In this document: piece by piece, positions 39,276 to 47,971 of the stretch
Numbering within the stretch: the first letter of the stretch is position 1
How the letters are laid out: each line of letters opens with the position of its first letter
NCBI GenBank assembly: GCA_947649205.1
Contig: CANSQM010000012.1
Span: 1 to 64,000, forward strand
Origin: an uncultured Enterorhabdus sp.
GTDB taxonomy: Bacteria > Actinomycetota > Coriobacteriia > Coriobacteriales > Eggerthellaceae
Direction: 5' to 3'
DNA: 64,000 nucleotides
Made by a program: the position numbers and the translations under genes
Notes under the pieces: generated by a model
What the model was told of the DNA's origin: nothing
The model's database searches: none
Seen by the model: only the letters and a program-made list of their open reading frames with translations

Positions 39276-39686
39276 ATGGAGCGACATCCCAAGCAGATCC
39301 ATGTGCGCATGTCCGAGGGCGAGATCAATCGCGCGAGGGCGCTTGCCCGAGGCCTCGGCATGACGCTCTCCGACCTCATCCGCATACTCCTGCAGCTGCC
39401 CGCATCCTCCATCGCGGAAGGCGGTCGCCTCGTCGTCGTAGATCGAGTGACCGCCGTGAAGCTCGCTCGCGAGATGCGGCGGTGGGGGCATCACTACAAC
39501 CAGGCGGCGCATGCCCTGAACGCCATCGCCTACTATCTTCGCGCCAACGACATGGACGCTGCGGACGTGCTGGAAGAGCTCGACCGGGCGTCGGAAAAGC
39601 TTGCCGCCATGCAGCTGGGCATCGAGGCGCTGCGCCGCGAGACGGAGGCCATATCGCAGCGCGCCATCGCGGGAATCGGCCGGTGA
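39276..39686 (+). CDS. mobC: MobC-type relaxosome accessory protein
   Basis: 136 aa. The N-terminal ribbon-helix-helix segment (KQIHVRMSEGEINRARALARGLGMTLSDLIRILL) and the MobC signature RRWGHHYNQAAHALNAIAYYLR are both present. It binds oriT and helps open the nick region for the relaxase that follows after 6 bp. ATG 39276 lies at the foot of a large hairpin that would bury its ribosome-binding site; ATG 39309 is an alternative. Confidence 0.88.
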   Translation: MERHPKQIHVRMSEGEINRARALARGLGMTLSDLIRILLQLPASSIAEGGRLVVVDRVTAVKLAREMRRWGHHYNQAAHALNAIAYYLRANDMDAADVLEELDRASEKLAAMQLGIEALRRETEAISQRAIAGIGR

Positions 39687-39692
39687 CTCGTC

Positions 39693-40919
39693 GTGCCGAT
39701 GCTCAAGACCATTGCCGGACACACCTCCTCCCGCGGCATCTGCCGCTACCTCACGCGCAAGAATCGTGCGCTCGCGAGCGACTACATCAACATCGATGCC
39801 CCCGACCCCGCGCACCCGGAGGCGGCCTTCGACTGGGCGCGCGTCATGGACTCCACACGTTGCGCCTTCGGCAACGACCTCCCCTGGCGGGGCAAGCGCG
39901 TGCGCACCTACAAGCACTACGTCGTGTCTCCCGACCCCAAGGACGGGATAGGGCTTGAAGCCCTGCGAAAGCTTGCGACGACCTGGGCGGCCGAGCACTT
40001 CTCCGAGTACGAGGTCGCCATCGTCTACCATGACGACAACGAGCGCGGCATCCCGCACGCGCACGTGGTCGTGAACAATACCAACATCGAGACGGGAAGG
40101 CGCCTGCAGGATCCCGCCCCCAAGGCCCTAGCCATATCCCTGCAGGATATCGCAGAGACGCAGGGACTATCCGCTCTGAGACCCCCCGAGCCCAAGGGAT
40201 TGGCCGCGCGAGCGGCGAGACGTAACTCCAAGAGGAGCCCCGAGACCCATCGCAGCGAGTACGTGCGCCGCGCCGAGAAAGAACTCACAGAGCGCGGAGA
40301 GTACTCCTGGACGGCCGATATCCGCGCACGAGTGCGCATAGCCCGCACCGTGGCGAGGAGCGATACCGAGTTCAGGAACGTGCTTGCGGCCATGGGCGTC
40401 ACCGTGTCCGACAACTCTCCCAAAGCACAGAGACGCGACTGGCTATACGCCCTCGCCGAACATCCCTCGCGGCGGATCTCAGGCGAACGCATGGGGCTCG
40501 CTTACGGTCGCGAGCGCCTTGAACCCGTTCTCCGCATGGGCGGGATGCGTAGGCTGGAAGACGCTGGGGAGCGCGCCATCGCAGCTATTGCCCGCCGCGC
40601 TCTTGCAGTTGGTGATCTGCGGGAGCTCGGAAGGCTGTCGGCGGCAGTGGCCTTAATCGAGTCGTCGCATGTACGATGTCTGGGGGACCTTGACGCGCTT
40701 ATGCAGGAGGCCAGCGTGAATAACGCCGACGCTGCTCGCTACATAAGGGAAAGAGCCCTGCTTCCCGAGGAGCGTCCTGCAATTGCCCTTCAACATGCTG
40801 CAAAAGCACCGTCTACCGTGAAAAGCGCTCAGGACGCCGCAAGACGAACCCGGCCCAGCGCTCTTCAACCCATGAGGCAAAACACCCAAGAAAAACGAAG
40901 AGGAGGGACACAGAGATGA
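39693..40919 (+). CDS. MOBP-type relaxase
   Basis: About 408 aa. The N-terminal relaxase domain contains the metal-binding HUH motif (IPHAHVVVNNTN, about residue 125) and Tyr residues near the N-terminus (YLTRKNRALASDY) as nicking candidates. The C-terminal half is basic and helical. It nicks oriT and pilots the DNA through the VirD4/VirB4 channel. GTG 39693 or ATG 39699 is the start. Its stop overlaps the next start (ATGA). Confidence 0.9.
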   Translation: MPMLKTIAGHTSSRGICRYLTRKNRALASDYINIDAPDPAHPEAAFDWARVMDSTRCAFGNDLPWRGKRVRTYKHYVVSPDPKDGIGLEALRKLATTWAAEHFSEYEVAIVYHDDNERGIPHAHVVVNNTNIETGRRLQDPAPKALAISLQDIAETQGLSALRPPEPKGLAARAARRNSKRSPETHRSEYVRRAEKELTERGEYSWTADIRARVRIARTVARSDTEFRNVLAAMGVTVSDNSPKAQRRDWLYALAEHPSRRISGERMGLAYGRERLEPVLRMGGMRRLEDAGERAIAAIARRALAVGDLRELGRLSAAVALIESSHVRCLGDLDALMQEASVNNADAARYIRERALLPEERPAIALQHAAKAPSTVKSAQDAARRTRPSALQPMRQNTQEKRRGGTQR

Positions 40920-41441: not shown

Positions 41442-41708
41442 CTATTCGGGCAAATTCTCTTCCTCGAATGGCCCTTCTCGCTGCAAAGGGGTCCTGAGTT
41501 CTTCCCGCTCACAGTACTTCAATATATCTCCGGGCTGACAATCAATTTCTCGACAAAGAGCATCCAACAGTTGAAAGCGTATTGCGTTTGCCTTTCCGGT
41601 TCGCAATCGGCTCAAATTGGCCTCGGTTATCCCAATTCGAGCTGATAATTCTTTTGCAGTTAGTCCCCGATCACGGAGAATGCCGTTAAGTTCAACCGAA
41701 ATGGTCAT
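41442..41708 (-). CDS. XRE/Cro-family regulator
   Basis: An 88-aa single-HTH protein (LTAKELSARIGITEANLSRLRTGKANAIRF), Cro-like. It is the same type as the 43415 product (shared LRxGKxxxxRFxxLxAxCxxxxCxPGDIL). Divergent from the 41806 HTH gene across a 34-bp palindrome, a typical operator layout. Confidence 0.85.
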   Translation of the reverse strand: MTISVELNGILRDRGLTAKELSARIGITEANLSRLRTGKANAIRFQLLDALCREIDCQPGDILKYCEREELRTPLQREGPFEEENLPE

Positions 41709-41805: not shown

Positions 41806-42057
41806 TTGTATGAAACACAGGGAAAATACTGTCGCTGTTTATCACGACCCGAGACCTTTGTTGGCACGAAAATTAGAGCATGCCGCGAAGCGCAGGGTTT
41901 ATCGCTTCGAAAGCTGTCTGGAATGATCGGAGTTGATCGCACTGTTCTAAATGATATAGAACTCGGACGCGGCAATCCCAGAGTGATGACACTTGCTAAA
42001 ATAGCCTCTGGTCTTGAGATTTCCCTCTCCGACCTGCTTATTGAGGATGATTGCTAG
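41806..42057 (+). CDS. XRE-family regulator
   Basis: 83 aa. The HTH covers about residues 22-75 (IRACREAQGLSLRKLSGMIGVDRTVLNDIELGRGNP, then SDLLIEDDC). TTG 41806 is the only in-frame start visible and lacks a clear ribosome-binding site, so the start is uncertain. Its 3' end overlaps the convergent radical SAM gene by 20 bp. Confidence 0.7.
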   Translation: MYETQGKYCRCLSRPETFVGTKIRACREAQGLSLRKLSGMIGVDRTVLNDIELGRGNPRVMTLAKIASGLEISLSDLLIEDDC

Positions 42058-43285
42058 CGAGGTTCGCCAGTGAGGCCCCCAATTTCTCGTAGTAATGATA
42101 ATTGAAGTCACAGTATGGATCACACCCGTCGATGCCTGCGCCTTCGTATACCGAGCGCGCTCTGCATCCCCCTCCACACAATAGGCGGTAGTCGCATTCG
42201 TTGCACTTAGTTATACGTGCGACATTTAGCGATGCAAAACTCTGTGCGAGATTTCCCTGCAAGATATTTTCTAGCGGCTCATCGAATATATTCCCCATTG
42301 CATAGTCTGGCCGATGAAGCATGTGGCACGGATATACGGTGCCGTCGGCGTCAACGCTTATCTCTTTGCAGCCAACACCGCAACTTGTTCGGGCAGACAG
42401 GTTGATGCCAAGCGAATCACGTGCATCTGTTAAAGGCATTCCCAAATCTAACAGACAATTCGCCAATCGGGTCAGTGCTTCCCTGTCGGGCAGTAAGTCG
42501 GCCAATGGATCCTCATTGCGAGGCTCACACGACAGCAAGCTATAATTCATGGTCACGCCAAGAGATCGAGATAGTTGTGCATATTCATCCAAATCTCCCA
42601 CGTTTAAACGATGAATCGTCGGAATAATGTGAGCGTGTATGCCGAATTCCTGAATATTACGAACGGCTTGAACGAGGAGGCTAAAGCGTTGCTTTCCTCG
42701 AATGTAGGATGGCGTTGTTTCGCTATATCCGTCAAATGATACTGCAATAGAATCCACATAGGGACTCATTTCTTCAAGGGTTCTTTTGTTGAGACAGGTG
42801 CCGTTGGTTATGACGGTAGTTTTTTCGATGCCGCACTTTTTCGCATGGCGCACCAGAATTGTCAGGTCAGCGCGCAGAAAAGGCTCCCCTCCAGAAAAGA
42901 ACAGGGAACGTGCCCCGGCTTGTGCTAACTGCTCGATTGCCCCCAGCATCTGTGTCGTAGACGAATCCTGGGATGAGTTACGAGAGTCACTCAAGGAATA
43001 GCATCCGGCGCATCGAAGATTGCAGTGTTGGGTCACGTGAAGATATGCGGACTGCAAGCTGTTATTTACACGAGGCATAGGCTCGAAATAGCCTGCTCGT
43101 TCGAGACATGCGATAAGAGGGGCATCTATTTCTTTGGCTTCCTGCGCAGACATGTCTTCCGTCAATAGCCTGTGACATAGCTCTTCCCCACGAGCAGTCA
43201 GCCCGACAACGAATCCGTTACTCAAATTGGCGATCATGGGTATGCCAGAATATTCAAACAATGTGACTAAGGGACTGAACTCCAC
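42038..43285 (-). CDS. Radical SAM/SPASM peptide-modifying enzyme
   Basis: About 415 aa. An N-terminal wHTH/RRE-like region (about 1-95) precedes the radical SAM cluster motif CNLRCAGC (CxxxCxxC, about residue 113). The later SPASM-type Cys set includes CGVGC, DADGTVYPCHM, CNECDYRLLCGGGC and CDPYCDF. SPASM enzymes of this size install thioether or C-C crosslinks in ribosomally made peptides or act on partner proteins. GTG 43285 with GGAGG was chosen over an upstream TTG. Downstream in the run of 35-aa peptide, DUF2975 and XRE genes, after a 129-bp gap. Confidence 0.85.
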   Translation of the reverse strand: MEFSPLVTLFEYSGIPMIANLSNGFVVGLTARGEELCHRLLTEDMSAQEAKEIDAPLIACLERAGYFEPMPRVNNSLQSAYLHVTQHCNLRCAGCYSLSDSRNSSQDSSTTQMLGAIEQLAQAGARSLFFSGGEPFLRADLTILVRHAKKCGIEKTTVITNGTCLNKRTLEEMSPYVDSIAVSFDGYSETTPSYIRGKQRFSLLVQAVRNIQEFGIHAHIIPTIHRLNVGDLDEYAQLSRSLGVTMNYSLLSCEPRNEDPLADLLPDREALTRLANCLLDLGMPLTDARDSLGINLSARTSCGVGCKEISVDADGTVYPCHMLHRPDYAMGNIFDEPLENILQGNLAQSFASLNVARITKCNECDYRLLCGGGCRARSVYEGAGIDGCDPYCDFNYHYYEKLGASLANLASNHPQ

Positions 43286-43414
43286 TTCAATTACCTCCGT
43301 GTTTCTGGAAATGTTGCTCAACCGCGCTTTTTGCGCGTAACACAATTCTCAAATGTATAGCTTGCATTTGAATCAGGTTTGTGATTCGGAGGATGTCACG
43401 TTCCCCTAGATGCG

Positions 43415-43681
43415 CTACTCTTCTGCATTCTCCAGGTCTATAATATACACTCCTTTTTCAAGGTGCTCTGCTTCCTCATCGGTGATACGAATGAGGATGT
43501 CGCCCGGAGAGCAGTTGAGTTTGTCGCAAATTGCAAACAGTGTTGAGAAGCGTACGGATCTGATCTTTCCTTTTCGTAAACGCGATATATTTGCAGGGGT
43601 ATGACCAGTTAGCTCCACCAGGTCTATACCTAGCACTCCGCGTTCTTTCATTAGCTTGCCAAGTTGAATTGCATATTTCAT
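43415..43681 (-). CDS. XRE-family regulator paired with DUF2975 protein
   Basis: An 88-aa Cro-like HTH (LVELTGHTPANISRLRKGKIRSVRFSTLFAICDKLNCSPGDIL). It lies 9 bp downstream of the DUF2975 gene. DUF2975-XRE pairs are a recurring two-gene unit, probably a membrane-linked regulatory couple. Confidence 0.87.
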   Translation of the reverse strand: MKYAIQLGKLMKERGVLGIDLVELTGHTPANISRLRKGKIRSVRFSTLFAICDKLNCSPGDILIRITDEEAEHLEKGVYIIDLENAEE

Positions 43682-43690
43682 ATATCCAGT

Positions 43691-44230
43691 CTACACCAAG
43701 TCATCCGTCTCTCGTTCGAGCGTAGAGCCATATTTGAACACCAACGATAGCGCGAAGCACACTATAGCAACGAGGATGCTTTCAAAATCTATGTCTACGG
43801 CAGTGCCCTCGGGCGCGGCACTGTAGAATGCCATCTTAGCCGCTCCGTCCTGCGCGCCAATTTGTGACCCCGGTGCAACGAGGAAATTGGCGACAGCAAT
43901 CAACAGAAACAACACTCCGAGCAGTCGAATCTGATGCACTCGCAGCGTGTTAAATGGCGACTCTCCTCGGCCTATTTCCCAACAAACTCTCTCTAAAAGA
44001 AAAAGAACGAAACACGTCGCAAGGCTGCCAAGCAAAAACGGAGCTAAAGTTAGAAGTGACGCAGATCCGAAAGAGACGAAACCCAAAGGAGGAACTAGGA
44101 TCCACGCCGCTATTGCCCCAATTGTGATCGCAAAAACTACGAGCACGACAAGAAAAAGGAGTCGCAATCTGCGGCACGTGACGGCAAGGCGAGATTTTGC
44201 GCTCTGGATGCGCAATAGCTGGTTATCCAC
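43691..44230 (-). CDS. DUF2975-family membrane protein
   Basis: 179 aa with four hydrophobic segments (about 22-48, 58-80, 100-122, 146-165). The family signatures are WEIGRGESPF before the third segment and VFKYGSTLERETDDLV at the C-terminus. GTG 44230. Family function unknown. Usually adjacent to an XRE gene, as here. Confidence 0.85.
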   Translation of the reverse strand: MDNQLLRIQSAKSRLAVTCRRLRLLFLVVLVVFAITIGAIAAWILVPPLGFVSFGSASLLTLAPFLLGSLATCFVLFLLERVCWEIGRGESPFNTLRVHQIRLLGVLFLLIAVANFLVAPGSQIGAQDGAAKMAFYSAAPEGTAVDIDFESILVAIVCFALSLVFKYGSTLERETDDLV

Positions 44231-44245
44231 AAAAGCCCAGCTTGT

Positions 44246-44353
44246 CTACTGCTTGTTTTCGCTGACCGCGATGGCACCATGGCTAATGCAAAACCCTGTA
44301 GGCCCAACATAGATACAGCCTGCCATGCAATCAAAATTCGAGAAGAACAGCAT
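44246..44353 (-). CDS. 35-aa Cys-containing peptide, candidate modified-peptide precursor
   Basis: A short gene with an ideal AAGGAG ribosome-binding site 5 bases before ATG 44353, ending 15 bp before the DUF2975 gene. Begins MLFFSNFDCMAGCIYVGPTG, with Cys at 9, 13 and 22 and a Gly/Ala/Ile-rich tail after Cys22. The Cys spacing and GCI...C(I/V)S pattern recall thuricin-CD-type sactipeptides, but the likeness is slight. A radical SAM/SPASM gene lies about 1 kb downstream on the same strand. Confidence 0.5.
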   Translation of the reverse strand: MLFFSNFDCMAGCIYVGPTGFCISHGAIAVSENKQ

Positions 44354-44656
44354 CGCAACTCCTTATGACTTATTACACTACGATAATTCATAATAATTCA
44401 CGCTTTGCCCTTTGTCCAGACTGACTCGGCCTTGCAAATACGAGGTAATAAATCCGATGAGTCCAGTCGAGAATTGATCATTGTGGAGAAAAATGACCGT
44501 TTACATGGCTATTTGTCGCGCATACATCCCTACTCTAGTTTCAAAAGCGGGTCAAAAATTTTCAAAAAACAATAATTTGTTCTTGTGATTGTAAGATAAT
44601 TGTTATATAGTAATTTTGCTGATCAGCTCAAATCCTATTGGATGAACGGAGGAGAC
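44354..44656. other. AT-rich divergent spacer with candidate bacteriocin promoter
   Basis: No further gene was seen. A candidate rightward promoter is TTGTGA (44583-44588), 17 bases, TATAGT (44606-44611), about 46 bp before the bacteriocin start. A short direct repeat of ATAATTCA lies near 44383-44400, in front of the leftward 35-aa peptide gene. The stretch is clearly richer in A and T than the element backbone. Confidence 0.5.
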
Positions 44657-45004
44657 ATGAAGAGATTCAAAAAGATCGCTGCGTGTTGCGTGGCCTCGCT
44701 AATGCTTACTTGCGCTGTCGGGGTATCACCGGCTCTGGCGGACACCGCAAGCAAAGGTAATGTTCCGATCAATCGAACTTACAATGTATCTATCTTGGGC
44801 GGCACATGGCATAACCAAGGAACATCGGCCAATGCATATTCCAATTTCTATCACAAAACCAAGCGCCACACTTCAACAGTGAGCAGCTCCAAATCGACGA
44901 CCGCAAAAACGGCGTCTGCAAATGCTGGCAGCTGGTCCTACGCCACTCTGGCTGGCCCCTTTGGCCCTTCGACTCTGTTTGCCTTTAAGTGCACGACGTC
45001 GTAG
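44657..45004 (+). CDS. Lactococcin 972-family bacteriocin precursor
   Basis: 115 aa. A Sec signal peptide (residues 1-28, cleavage after VSPALA) and a mature region with the family layout: GGTWHNQGTSANAYSNFYH, K-x-H-T-STV, then AGSWSYATLAG. Lactococcin 972 blocks septum formation by binding lipid II. ATG 44657 has GGAGGA; an upstream in-frame ATG would disrupt the signal peptide. It is followed by a DUF1430-type protein and an ABC ATPase, the standard immunity/export set. Confidence 0.88.
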   Translation: MKRFKKIAACCVASLMLTCAVGVSPALADTASKGNVPINRTYNVSILGGTWHNQGTSANAYSNFYHKTKRHTSTVSSSKSTTAKTASANAGSWSYATLAGPFGPSTLFAFKCTTS

Positions 45005-45049
45005 TGGAAGCGGAACGGAAATGCACTCTGGTGACAAAAGGACACGCCT

Positions 45050-47299
45050 ATGATTAGGCGTGTCCTTTCCTTCATGCTAGTGTTAGTGGGTGCACTGGTA
45101 CTAGTGAATACCGTCAATACCGCCGACCTCGCCGAACGCATTCAACGCAATGATGCTTTGAGCGGCTACACGCCGGTTCACGTCTGTAATGCAGAAGAAT
45201 CTGTCGACCCCTCTTTATTTTGGAAATCATTGAAAAGATCTGCCGACGAAGCTGGAATTAACCTTTTTCGCAAGGTCAGTGGATGGACTCCGGCAGATCA
45301 GCCTTTTTCCTCCTACTATGCATATTTCTCACAAGACAATACGAGCTTTTTTGAATCATTCTCAATAGTTGGAATGAATCCACGTAATGTCAGCTTGACA
45401 AGCAGCGACTGGTCTTTCGGAACGAGCAACGCCGAACCGTTGCACCATAGCAGCGGCACAATAAGCGACATCGCGGCAAACGACCAGTGTCTCATTGTTC
45501 CTTTAGAGAAGGCGTTTGATTCGTATCCGATAATCGGCATATACTATGTTGAAGCACCAGTAGAAAATAGGGCTGAAGAATTCGTTTCGCTCGCAAATAA
45601 ATACTTGCAGCAAGCCGATATATCGGCAACCCTGGCGTTTAGCTCAACTAATCAAGAAGCAACGGACTTGAGTTATGATGCGGGAGAAGTTGATGAGGGC
45701 CTCACTAACTTCGCTGTACTTTTATCTGTGCTCATTGTGGTTGCCATTATCGGCTACTACCAGCTAAGCGAGGCAAAGCGTTTTTCGATCCTAGCTCTTT
45801 ACGGAAATGGCATTGTTTCGACTTGGTTCCAGGCATGCGGAAAATACCTATTCAAGGTAATCGGAATCTCGCTTGTGCTTTATGCTCTACTGGTAGCTTT
45901 TATTCCGGGCAGCTCGGCCGGATTAATTGTTCAAGTTGGCGCCAATCTAGCATACGCTTTTGGCATCATTCTCGTATCGTCTTGCGTAATTGCGCTTATA
46001 GTGCGTCCTCGAAATAACGCTCTTGCCCTAAAAGGAAGAAGTAGCGCCAAGAAACTTGCAATGGTATGTCTGGGAGCAAAAGCGGTGTTGTGTATAACAT
46101 TGGCTGGCATGTGTGCATCCACTCTTGGCATGCAAGAAGCCCTCCAAGAAGAGGCTGCACGATACAAAAGTTGGTCTCAAGCCTCTCAGTACGGGATTTT
46201 TTCTCCACTAAGCTTAGGCTATGATGGCAATGAGCTGGAAACCAAGGTTATTCCAAGTATCGTATTCGATTTCTACCCGACTGCGACGAAAAAAGGGGCT
46301 CTCTATATTGATTCGTCGCAGTACCTTCCAATCGCATTAGCGAATAGCAGCCAAGAGTACCGTTCAATTACAGTAAACCCAAATTACCTCAAGGCATTCC
46401 CTATTGTTGATTGCCAGGGGAACATCGTAAACATTCAAGAAGTTGAGCAAAACTGGATTCTTTTGGTTCCCGAAGCCTATCGCGCCGAGGAGCAATCCAT
46501 TCGAGAAAAGTGGGACCTCATGCGCAATCCAGATGAAGAGGGATTGACGCTTTGGGACAAAGACGTCGTGTGGTGCGGGCGAACCGTAGAATCGGTGCCT
46601 AGTGATCAAGCCATTGAAATAATCTGGGTGAAAAATAATCAGCAGATATTCGGCTTTAATCCCGAGATTGGTAAAGAGAACGACGGGAATATCAGCGACC
46701 CGATCATTGAAGTGCTCACGCTTTCAAATAGCTGCGGCATGGAACGATGGAACGCTATAACGGGAGGAATGGAGTCCGCATTAAAGATTCCTCTCGCTGA
46801 AGGCGATCCTGTAAGATCCTACGAAGAGTATCGCCCTCTTCTCTCAGAGTATGGGCTAGATGATAATTTAAAACAACTAGTCACACATGAGGGCGCAGTC
46901 TTTGAGGCGTTGCAAGGATTTCGTGATGCTCGAAATGGCCTAATCCTACAAATGTCATTAGTCTTGGTCGCCTTCATTATCATTAGCGTTCAGTGCTCAA
47001 CGCTCTTATTCGAGATGAACCTTCGCCTTGCTGCTGTAAAAAAGGTTTTTGGTTACGGATTCTTTTCTCGCGAGGCGAGACCTATCATTGTTTGGGGATC
47101 ACTATGGATTGCAACAGTCACGGGAATGGGCCTACTCCAATGGACCACGAGTTGGCCGACTGACGTCATGCAAATTGGCGCCACGAATCTCTTCAACGCA
47201 GTTGCTTGTCTCTTGATCATTGATACATGCGTCACATTCATGGCGCTTTACTTGAGTGACAGACGGCGATCAATTGATGTTTTGAAGGGGAATCACTGA
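45050..47299 (+). CDS. Bacteriocin-associated integral membrane protein (DUF1430 type, putative immunity/permease)
   Basis: 749 aa. An N-terminal transmembrane helix (about 5-23), an extracellular domain, three or four helices (about 220-360), a second large extracellular domain and three C-terminal helices (about 640-735) give an FtsX/MacB-like permease topology. In lactococcin 972 loci this protein with the following ATPase confers immunity and possibly export. ATG 45050, 45 bp after the bacteriocin gene. Confidence 0.85.
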   Translation: MIRRVLSFMLVLVGALVLVNTVNTADLAERIQRNDALSGYTPVHVCNAEESVDPSLFWKSLKRSADEAGINLFRKVSGWTPADQPFSSYYAYFSQDNTSFFESFSIVGMNPRNVSLTSSDWSFGTSNAEPLHHSSGTISDIAANDQCLIVPLEKAFDSYPIIGIYYVEAPVENRAEEFVSLANKYLQQADISATLAFSSTNQEATDLSYDAGEVDEGLTNFAVLLSVLIVVAIIGYYQLSEAKRFSILALYGNGIVSTWFQACGKYLFKVIGISLVLYALLVAFIPGSSAGLIVQVGANLAYAFGIILVSSCVIALIVRPRNNALALKGRSSAKKLAMVCLGAKAVLCITLAGMCASTLGMQEALQEEAARYKSWSQASQYGIFSPLSLGYDGNELETKVIPSIVFDFYPTATKKGALYIDSSQYLPIALANSSQEYRSITVNPNYLKAFPIVDCQGNIVNIQEVEQNWILLVPEAYRAEEQSIREKWDLMRNPDEEGLTLWDKDVVWCGRTVESVPSDQAIEIIWVKNNQQIFGFNPEIGKENDGNISDPIIEVLTLSNSCGMERWNAITGGMESALKIPLAEGDPVRSYEEYRPLLSEYGLDDNLKQLVTHEGAVFEALQGFRDARNGLILQMSLVLVAFIIISVQCSTLLFEMNLRLAAVKKVFGYGFFSREARPIIVWGSLWIATVTGMGLLQWTTSWPTDVMQIGATNLFNAVACLLIIDTCVTFMALYLSDRRRSIDVLKGNH

Positions 47300-47332
47300 A
47301 ATAAGCTGGCCGCGAGTTGGAAAGATGCCCGT

Positions 47333-47971
47333 ATGATAGTAGAAATTAACAAGCTTTGCAAAAGCTATGCTGACCGTATTGTTCTTAGCAACCTAAGCAT
47401 GAGCATAGGGCGAGAAGAACTCGTCGCCATTGTTGGCCCAAGTGGTTCAGGTAAGTCCACCCTGCTCAATATTATTGGACTGCTCGATAGTCCAGACAAC
47501 AATGGATTGAAGCTTTTTGGACAGACCGCCCCAAAGCCCAACTCTTCGAAAGCAAGACAGCTGCTGCGCACCAGAATTGCTTATATGTTTCAAGAGCCCG
47601 CGCTTGTAGACACTGAGACGGTGGAGGCAAATCTAAAATTAGCTCAGCGTTACTCGGATGTACCACGAAAAAAGCGCCAAGAGCAGAGGGAGGCCATTTT
47701 GGACGACATGGGCCTCGCTCATACCCTAAAGCAAAAAGTGTTTCGTCTTTCCGGGGGAGAGCAGCAGCGATTGGCGCTTGGGTGCATACGTATGCACCCA
47801 AGCGATCTCATCTTAGCGGACGAGCCCACGGGTTCTTTAGATGCAGCAAACAGGGATATTATCTTGAATTACATCGAAAACCTCGTTGCAGAAGGGAAGA
47901 CCGCCGTGGTTGTTACGCACGATCCAGTCGTAGCTAACCGCGCCACAAGAGTGATTGAACTAATCTCTTAG
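47333..47971 (+). CDS. ABC transporter ATPase of the lactococcin 972 locus
   Basis: 212 aa. Walker A GPSGSGKST, Q-loop YMFQEPALVDTET, signature LSGGEQQRLALG, Walker B LILADEPTGSLD and H-loop VVVTHD are all present. It is a MacB/LolD-type ATPase that pairs with the preceding membrane protein. Confidence 0.93.
   Translation: MIVEINKLCKSYADRIVLSNLSMSIGREELVAIVGPSGSGKSTLLNIIGLLDSPDNNGLKLFGQTAPKPNSSKARQLLRTRIAYMFQEPALVDTETVEANLKLAQRYSDVPRKKRQEQREAILDDMGLAHTLKQKVFRLSGGEQQRLALGCIRMHPSDLILADEPTGSLDAANRDIILNYIENLVAEGKTAVVVTHDPVVANRATRVIELIS

Follow-up and report, generated by a model that had tools for sequence, protein, structure and literature searches.

Streptosactin carries two small, consecutive, unnested sactionine rings, Cys25-Ser28 and Cys31-Gly34 (PMC8172795). 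Its system (GGG family, GggA; maturase GggB/StsB) likewise joins a short Cys peptide to a radical SAM/SPASM enzyme, and streptosactin is the nearest known product to the one described here. The streptococcal RaS-RiPP subfamilies CGx, CGG and VSA are uncharacterized and are tied to Rgg regulators (PMC13361665).

We have found a compact RiPP cassette that probably encodes a leader-poor, thioether-bridged peptide and an allele-specific membrane immunity protein or receptor. A radical SAM RiPP is a known kind of product; the leader-poor precursor and its co-varying DUF2975 partner are new. No description of the peptide family was found in searchable open-access papers and family libraries, and an open-access library without preprints yielded no paper on DUF2975 with RiPPs or on Coriobacteria with this kind of radical SAM RiPP.

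The cassette and its surroundings

The window, i.e. the whole stretch of 64,000 nucleotides that was analyzed, is part of contig 12 of a 2.7-Mb genome. Its minus strand encodes, in this order, the peptide, a DUF2975-like protein, an XRE regulator and a radical SAM/SPASM enzyme (Table 1). The original prediction of a peptide gene with an ideal ribosome-binding site close to DUF2975 was borne out by the AAGGAG element and by a spacer of exactly 15 bp from the peptide stop codon to the GTG start of DUF2975. The peptide starts with MLF, contains cysteines at positions 9, 13 and 22 and has two CxxxG repeats (C13-G17 and C22-G26) followed by a 9-residue tail. All three predicted cysteines are thus present; Cys13 and Cys22 are conserved in relatives and Cys9 is not. 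The thuricin-CD-like pattern that had been perceived in the peptide showed no similarity on analysis, the actual pattern being the two C-x-x-x-G repeats. Neither the window peptide nor ten of its relatives matched an NCBIfam model, and thuricin CD or another known precursor was rejected for lack of a precursor-model match.

Table 1. Features of the cassette and its surroundings in the window
Feature	Position	Strand	Evidence or remark
Precursor peptide MLFFSNFDCMAGCIYVGPTGFCISHGAIAVSENKQ, 35 aa	44246..44353	-	ORF and ribosome-binding site; family position before DUF2975
Peptide ribosome-binding site AAGGAG	44359..44364	-	5 nt before ATG
DUF2975-like membrane protein, 179 aa	43691..44230	-	PF11188, 17 bits; AF2 model; co-variation with peptide
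XRE/Cro-C1 regulator (HTH_26), 88 aa	43415..43681	-	PF13443, E 8e-18; after DUF2975 in nearly all cassettes
Putative radical SAM/SPASM maturase, 415 aa, GTG start	42038..43285	-	PF04055, PF13186; invariant Cys; CteB fold
RRE-like N-terminal domain of maturase, about residues 1-70	43076..43285	-	AF2 secondary structure; profile match
Second HTH_26 gene, possible extra regulator, membership unsure	41442..41708	-	XRE-family closeness
Lactococcin-972 locus, divergent	44600-47971	+	Bacteriocin, membrane protein, export-type ABC ATPase

The open reading frame of the enzyme starts too early, at 43345; the true start is the GTG at 43285, which has CGGAGG in front, and relatives also start at the matching position (MEFSPLVTLFEYSGIPMIAN versus MKFGPHIKLFEFADIPMIGN). 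The protein matched PF04055 with 83 bits and PF13186 with 47 bits (cut-off, 21.5). As predicted from the window, the CxxxCxxC motif (C88, C92 and C95) and the SPASM cysteines (C302, C320, C361, C364, C370, C374 and C392) are all present, and they are invariant in 19 sequences, which identifies the protein as a putative radical SAM/SPASM peptide maturase. Its AlphaFold model (pLDDT 89) had CteB, which forms thioethers, as the top structural match (Foldseek E 2e-20, Z 29.6). The two best NCBIfam matches were the streptosactin-type StsB model (NF045574; 149 bits against a cut-off of 625) and the mycofactocin MftC model (114 bits against a cut-off of 265), and the enzyme belongs to none of the curated NCBIfam maturase families. 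Since all scores lie far under these cut-offs, the chemistry could differ and might consist of epimerization, a beta- or gamma-thioether, or a C-C bond.

In the AF2 model, residues 1-70 of the enzyme fold with high pLDDT into a strand-strand-strand-helix-helix arrangement, and a profile of this region had the RRE of TbiB1 (5V1U) as its best PDB match (E 0.003). PqqD was matched in 1 of 30 members, so that sequence support is modest, and because VIA-align barely tested the first 68 residues, the RRE reading rests on topology and on the profile match. With this modest support, the N-terminus is considered a candidate RiPP recognition element.

The match behind the DUF2975 label, PF11188, scores 17 bits, under the Pfam gathering score of 27. 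Among 32 family members, 17 matched PF11188 at E values up to 0.1, the best being 6e-7. The AF2 model of the window protein (pLDDT 85) has four predicted long helices, and a fold search with it gave no match at E < 0.001.

The second HTH_26 gene and the cassette’s own member are equally close to the cassette XRE family. A further XRE gene (41806-42057, plus strand) is convergent to the maturase gene and lies downstream of it. A conserved XRE operator was looked for upstream of the operon, and just lineage-specific palindromes were seen. In Eggerthellaceae (e.g. L050, L054 and L057), the palindrome GTAAyC-N4-GrTTAC occurs about 130-160 bp before the maturase; several such loci have a divergent LysR-type gene upstream, of which the palindrome is probably the site. 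Some Atopobiaceae have the palindrome CCGTTAACGG instead. Matches in a promoter and terminator scan of the window were no more numerous than in shuffles.

The lactococcin 972 gene on the other side of the cassette (44600-45004) scored 40.9 bits against TIGR01653 (cut-off, 32.1), and the membrane protein of its locus is bacteriocin-associated (TIGR01654). This locus is separate from the peptide cassette; the functional link between the two was rejected and the original prediction’s association with it dropped, as gene families of this kind do not turn up next to other cassettes. The products of two consecutive plus-strand open reading frames (39276-39686 and 39693-40919) resemble, by eye, a mobilization protein and a relaxase, which makes it possible that the cassette is carried by a mobile element.

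Distribution, selection and co-variation of the peptide family

Relatives of the enzyme were drawn from related genomes, from a scan of GTDB contigs and from larger genome draws. The GTDB contigs contained 80 loci, about 60 of them with the four-gene cassette, and of 398 genomes sampled from the class Coriobacteriia, 67 have the enzyme. The commonest order is enzyme-peptide-DUF2975-XRE. The order DUF2975-XRE-enzyme of the window is shared with L049, L060, L061, L062, L074, L107 and L113, and here the peptide leads the run in each case where the contig is not cut off. In both arrangements, the peptide lies directly before DUF2975. The genome of the window has two further complete cassettes, on C16 (L032; peptide MLFYGEPEPQNVCFYVGPSAPCLKVGI) and C9 (L033; peptide beginning MLFHSDLDDFDVPSHSRCQHIGFGGVCVNVGYAKQ), and a DUF2975-XRE pair without a peptide on C6 (L199).

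An upstream-ORF rule that is blind to Cys was applied to 60 DUF2975-like loci. An ATG-MLF open reading frame lay directly upstream in 57, each with a Shine-Dalgarno-like site (57/57); of the other three, one is at a contig end and two are nearly identical loci in which an MQF variant starts with GTG. Because MLF starts make up just 0.9% of background short open reading frames, the position of the peptide is beyond chance. A blind whole-genome pattern scan of 138 bacterial-family genomes found in-frame two-repeat peptides in 31, of which 30 have the enzyme, as compared with 7 of the 107 others (Fisher p = 1.5e-22). The small Cys peptides expected upstream of DUF2975 in loci with close enzyme homologues were present in nearly every case: the peptide is conserved in relatives, and no pairing of the enzyme with another precursor was found. 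A short precursor that is genetically tied to a maturase qualifies the cassette as a putative RiPP system.

Peptides of the family start with MLF, have 21-38 residues (a few are longer) and contain a single C-x-x-x-G repeat or two. In 46 of 75 peptides there are two CxxxG units, separated by 3-6 residues; in 36 of these 46 the first Cys is at position 13, which fits the predicted short precursor with a very short leader, and in 42 the residue before the Gly of the first repeat (C+3) is I, V, L or F. Most peptides of Atopobiaceae and Coriobacteriaceae have 21-25 residues and end in a conserved hydrophobic-G; with a single conserved Cys each, they imply that a second ring is dispensable. Peptides of the window type have a tail of 8-12 residues, and the nearest relatives of the window peptide (L049 and L113) have both gene order and tail type in common with it. 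Synonymous change exceeded non-synonymous change in most peptide pairs (L055/L058: pS 0.60 versus pN 0.05; L049/L113: pS 0.79 versus pN 0.26), which indicates selection at the protein level.

Between the conserved radical SAM and XRE genes, the peptide and the DUF2975-like protein are hypervariable and co-vary as a module. Between L058 and L056, the enzyme (96% identity) and XRE protein (97%) are nearly fixed, as opposed to the peptide (63%) and DUF2975 (48%); between L065 and L092, the peptide is 100% and DUF2975 93% identical. DNA identity between L086 and L087 is 86-95% in the enzyme gene, drops to 72-76% in the peptide and to 40-65% over most of DUF2975, and is back at 95-97% in the end of DUF2975 and XRE. 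Across 31 close pairs, which represent few genera and cannot count as independent, peptide identity followed that of DUF2975 (Spearman 0.71) rather than that of XRE (0.18), and DUF2975 was less conserved than XRE in 30 of 30 close pairs. A partial Mantel test of peptide against DUF2975 given enzyme identity gave r = 0.55 (p = 0.0002; 15 Eggerthellaceae), and over all 54 loci the partial correlation given the radical SAM enzyme was a weak 0.13; the co-variation stands out only between closely related loci, whose distances are still unsaturated. Given the dependence among close pairs and the generally fast evolution of membrane proteins, we regard the co-variation as strong rather than final. 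Because peptide and DUF2975 change together while their neighbors are nearly fixed, a peptide with a matched immunity protein or receptor is suggested, and the DUF2975-like protein would be this allele-specific partner. Such a partnership goes beyond the original prediction, whose main idea of a ribosomal peptide with a very short leader and a radical SAM enzyme is supported.

Satellite modules and Firmicutes relatives

Twenty regions were examined in which a DUF2975-like gene lies apart from the enzyme. An MLF Cys peptide lies in front in nine (L183, L184, L185, L187-L191 and L198), and a tenth satellite peptide, at L194, was seen in the pattern scan. No enzyme homologue occurs within these ten stretches; all eight satellite-bearing genomes carry the enzyme elsewhere, so that several peptides may share a single enzyme. 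Genome G093 has three satellite modules and a full cassette. One region (L193) is cut off by a contig end; the remaining nine lack a peptide and have DUF2975 genes that are nearly all accompanied by XRE. The enzyme is absent from five genomes with peptide-less DUF2975 (G155, G019, G064, G156 and G133), as would be expected of orphan immunity or eavesdropping.

In Firmicutes relatives, as many as four MLF or MLK peptides stand in tandem, often adjoined by a LytTR/histidine-kinase two-component pair. Here, the maturase is accompanied by a CPBP intramembrane protease, an exporter ABC and further ABC genes (L100-L112 and L121), and these loci are likely a bacteriocin cluster family of their own. 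In one Lachnospiraceae locus (L069:7287-7754), four tandem MLF/CxxxG peptides follow the maturase and are followed by ABC transporter genes. The tandem copies of Firmicutes and of L082 occur without DUF2975. The Coriobacteriia cassette has no exporter or protease gene, whereas the Firmicutes relatives encode both.

Proposed function and comparison with known systems

It is hypothesized that the first ~12 residues of the peptide (MLF...) serve as a very short leader that is bound by the fused RRE-like domain of the enzyme. The enzyme would then form a thioether from each CxxxG Cys to the hydrophobic residue or to the invariant Gly, 3-4 positions downstream. One or two small unnested rings would result, in a streptosactin-like topology. 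The product, whose secretion is assumed, would act at the membrane on close relatives; the four-helix DUF2975-like protein would be its allele-specific partner, as immunity protein or receptor, and the XRE protein would set expression of the cassette.

A narrow bacteriocin is the most likely product. The modified peptide might instead be a self-signal, with DUF2975 as a membrane receptor that holds or releases an XRE repressor, following SdpI/SdpR-like logic, and with the allelic pairs as pherotypes, as in agr. The many alleles on one scaffold, the co-variation of peptide and DUF2975, the XRE gene directly after DUF2975 in nearly all loci and a cassette without exporter or ABC immunity genes would all suit such a pheromone, which we nevertheless think unlikely. 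The XRE protein is nearly constant and shows no co-variation with the peptide, the peptide-less DUF2975-XRE pairs, some of them in enzyme-free genomes, resemble orphan immunity more, and sensing in the Firmicutes relatives is served by a two-component system of its own. A bacteriocin with its immunity protein is therefore preferred to a pheromone on the basis of the lack of XRE co-variation, the orphan DUF2975 genes and the bacteriocin-like Firmicutes clusters.

Two further explanations are far less probable. That the open reading frame is an unmodified microprotein subunit or translational attenuator of DUF2975, with the enzyme there by chance, would agree with its location near DUF2975, whose start region it overlaps in a few loci; selection on Cys and Gly at the amino-acid level, the near-constant presence of the enzyme in peptide genomes (30/31) and the tandem peptides without DUF2975 in Firmicutes and L082 make this very improbable. 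We find it scarcely credible that the peptide is the source of a redox cofactor, like PqqA or MftA, and the enzyme a PqqE/MftC relative. The precursor is indeed very short with little leader, many peptides have, at their C-terminus, a Gly followed by an aromatic or aliphatic residue, and MftC is the second NCBIfam match. The MftC score is nevertheless far under its cut-off, the core is hypervariable between close species, contrary to what would be expected if it gave rise to a cofactor, the loci have no dehydrogenase or cofactor-processing gene in common, and tandem and satellite peptide copies exist.

It is possible, though we propose it tentatively, that the cassettes constitute a widespread recognition system of gut Coriobacteriia, in which allelic mini-peptide/DUF2975 pairs are swapped as a module while the maturase and regulator genes around them stay conserved, satellites are matured in trans by a single enzyme and orphan DUF2975 proteins provide immunity or eavesdropping. 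Such a system would give a role to DUF2975-type proteins, whose function is unknown, as matched partners of a modified peptide. It would also add to gut bacteria a common RiPP family of a sort little of which was found described. Radical SAM RiPP precursors would be brought down to 21-38 residues, almost leaderless and short enough for usual gene callers to miss.

Compared with streptosactin, whose two consecutive rings have their counterpart in the two consecutive CxxxG units, with rings that are predicted, the cassette has DUF2975 and XRE as partners in place of Rgg/SHP, a protease and an exporter, and almost no leader. The CteB/SCIFF maturases and SuiB, which gave the best fold matches, likewise combine an N-terminal peptide-binding domain with radical SAM and SPASM domains; they share about 20% identity with the cassette enzyme, and the cassette has no SCIFF precursor and has other partners. 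The Streptococcus and Enterococcus relatives found here are, like the CGx, CGG and VSA families, Cys-Gly peptides with radical SAM enzymes, and the Firmicutes branch, compared by description only, might overlap with these streptococcal families, which are Rgg-linked whereas the Firmicutes loci have a LytTR/histidine-kinase-type pair. In specificity loci of the agr, ComQXP and bacteriocin/immunity type, a hypervariable peptide and its partner lie between conserved genes. The layout of such loci is the same as that of the cassette and all proteins are different, the cassette having a radical SAM peptide and a DUF2975-like protein.
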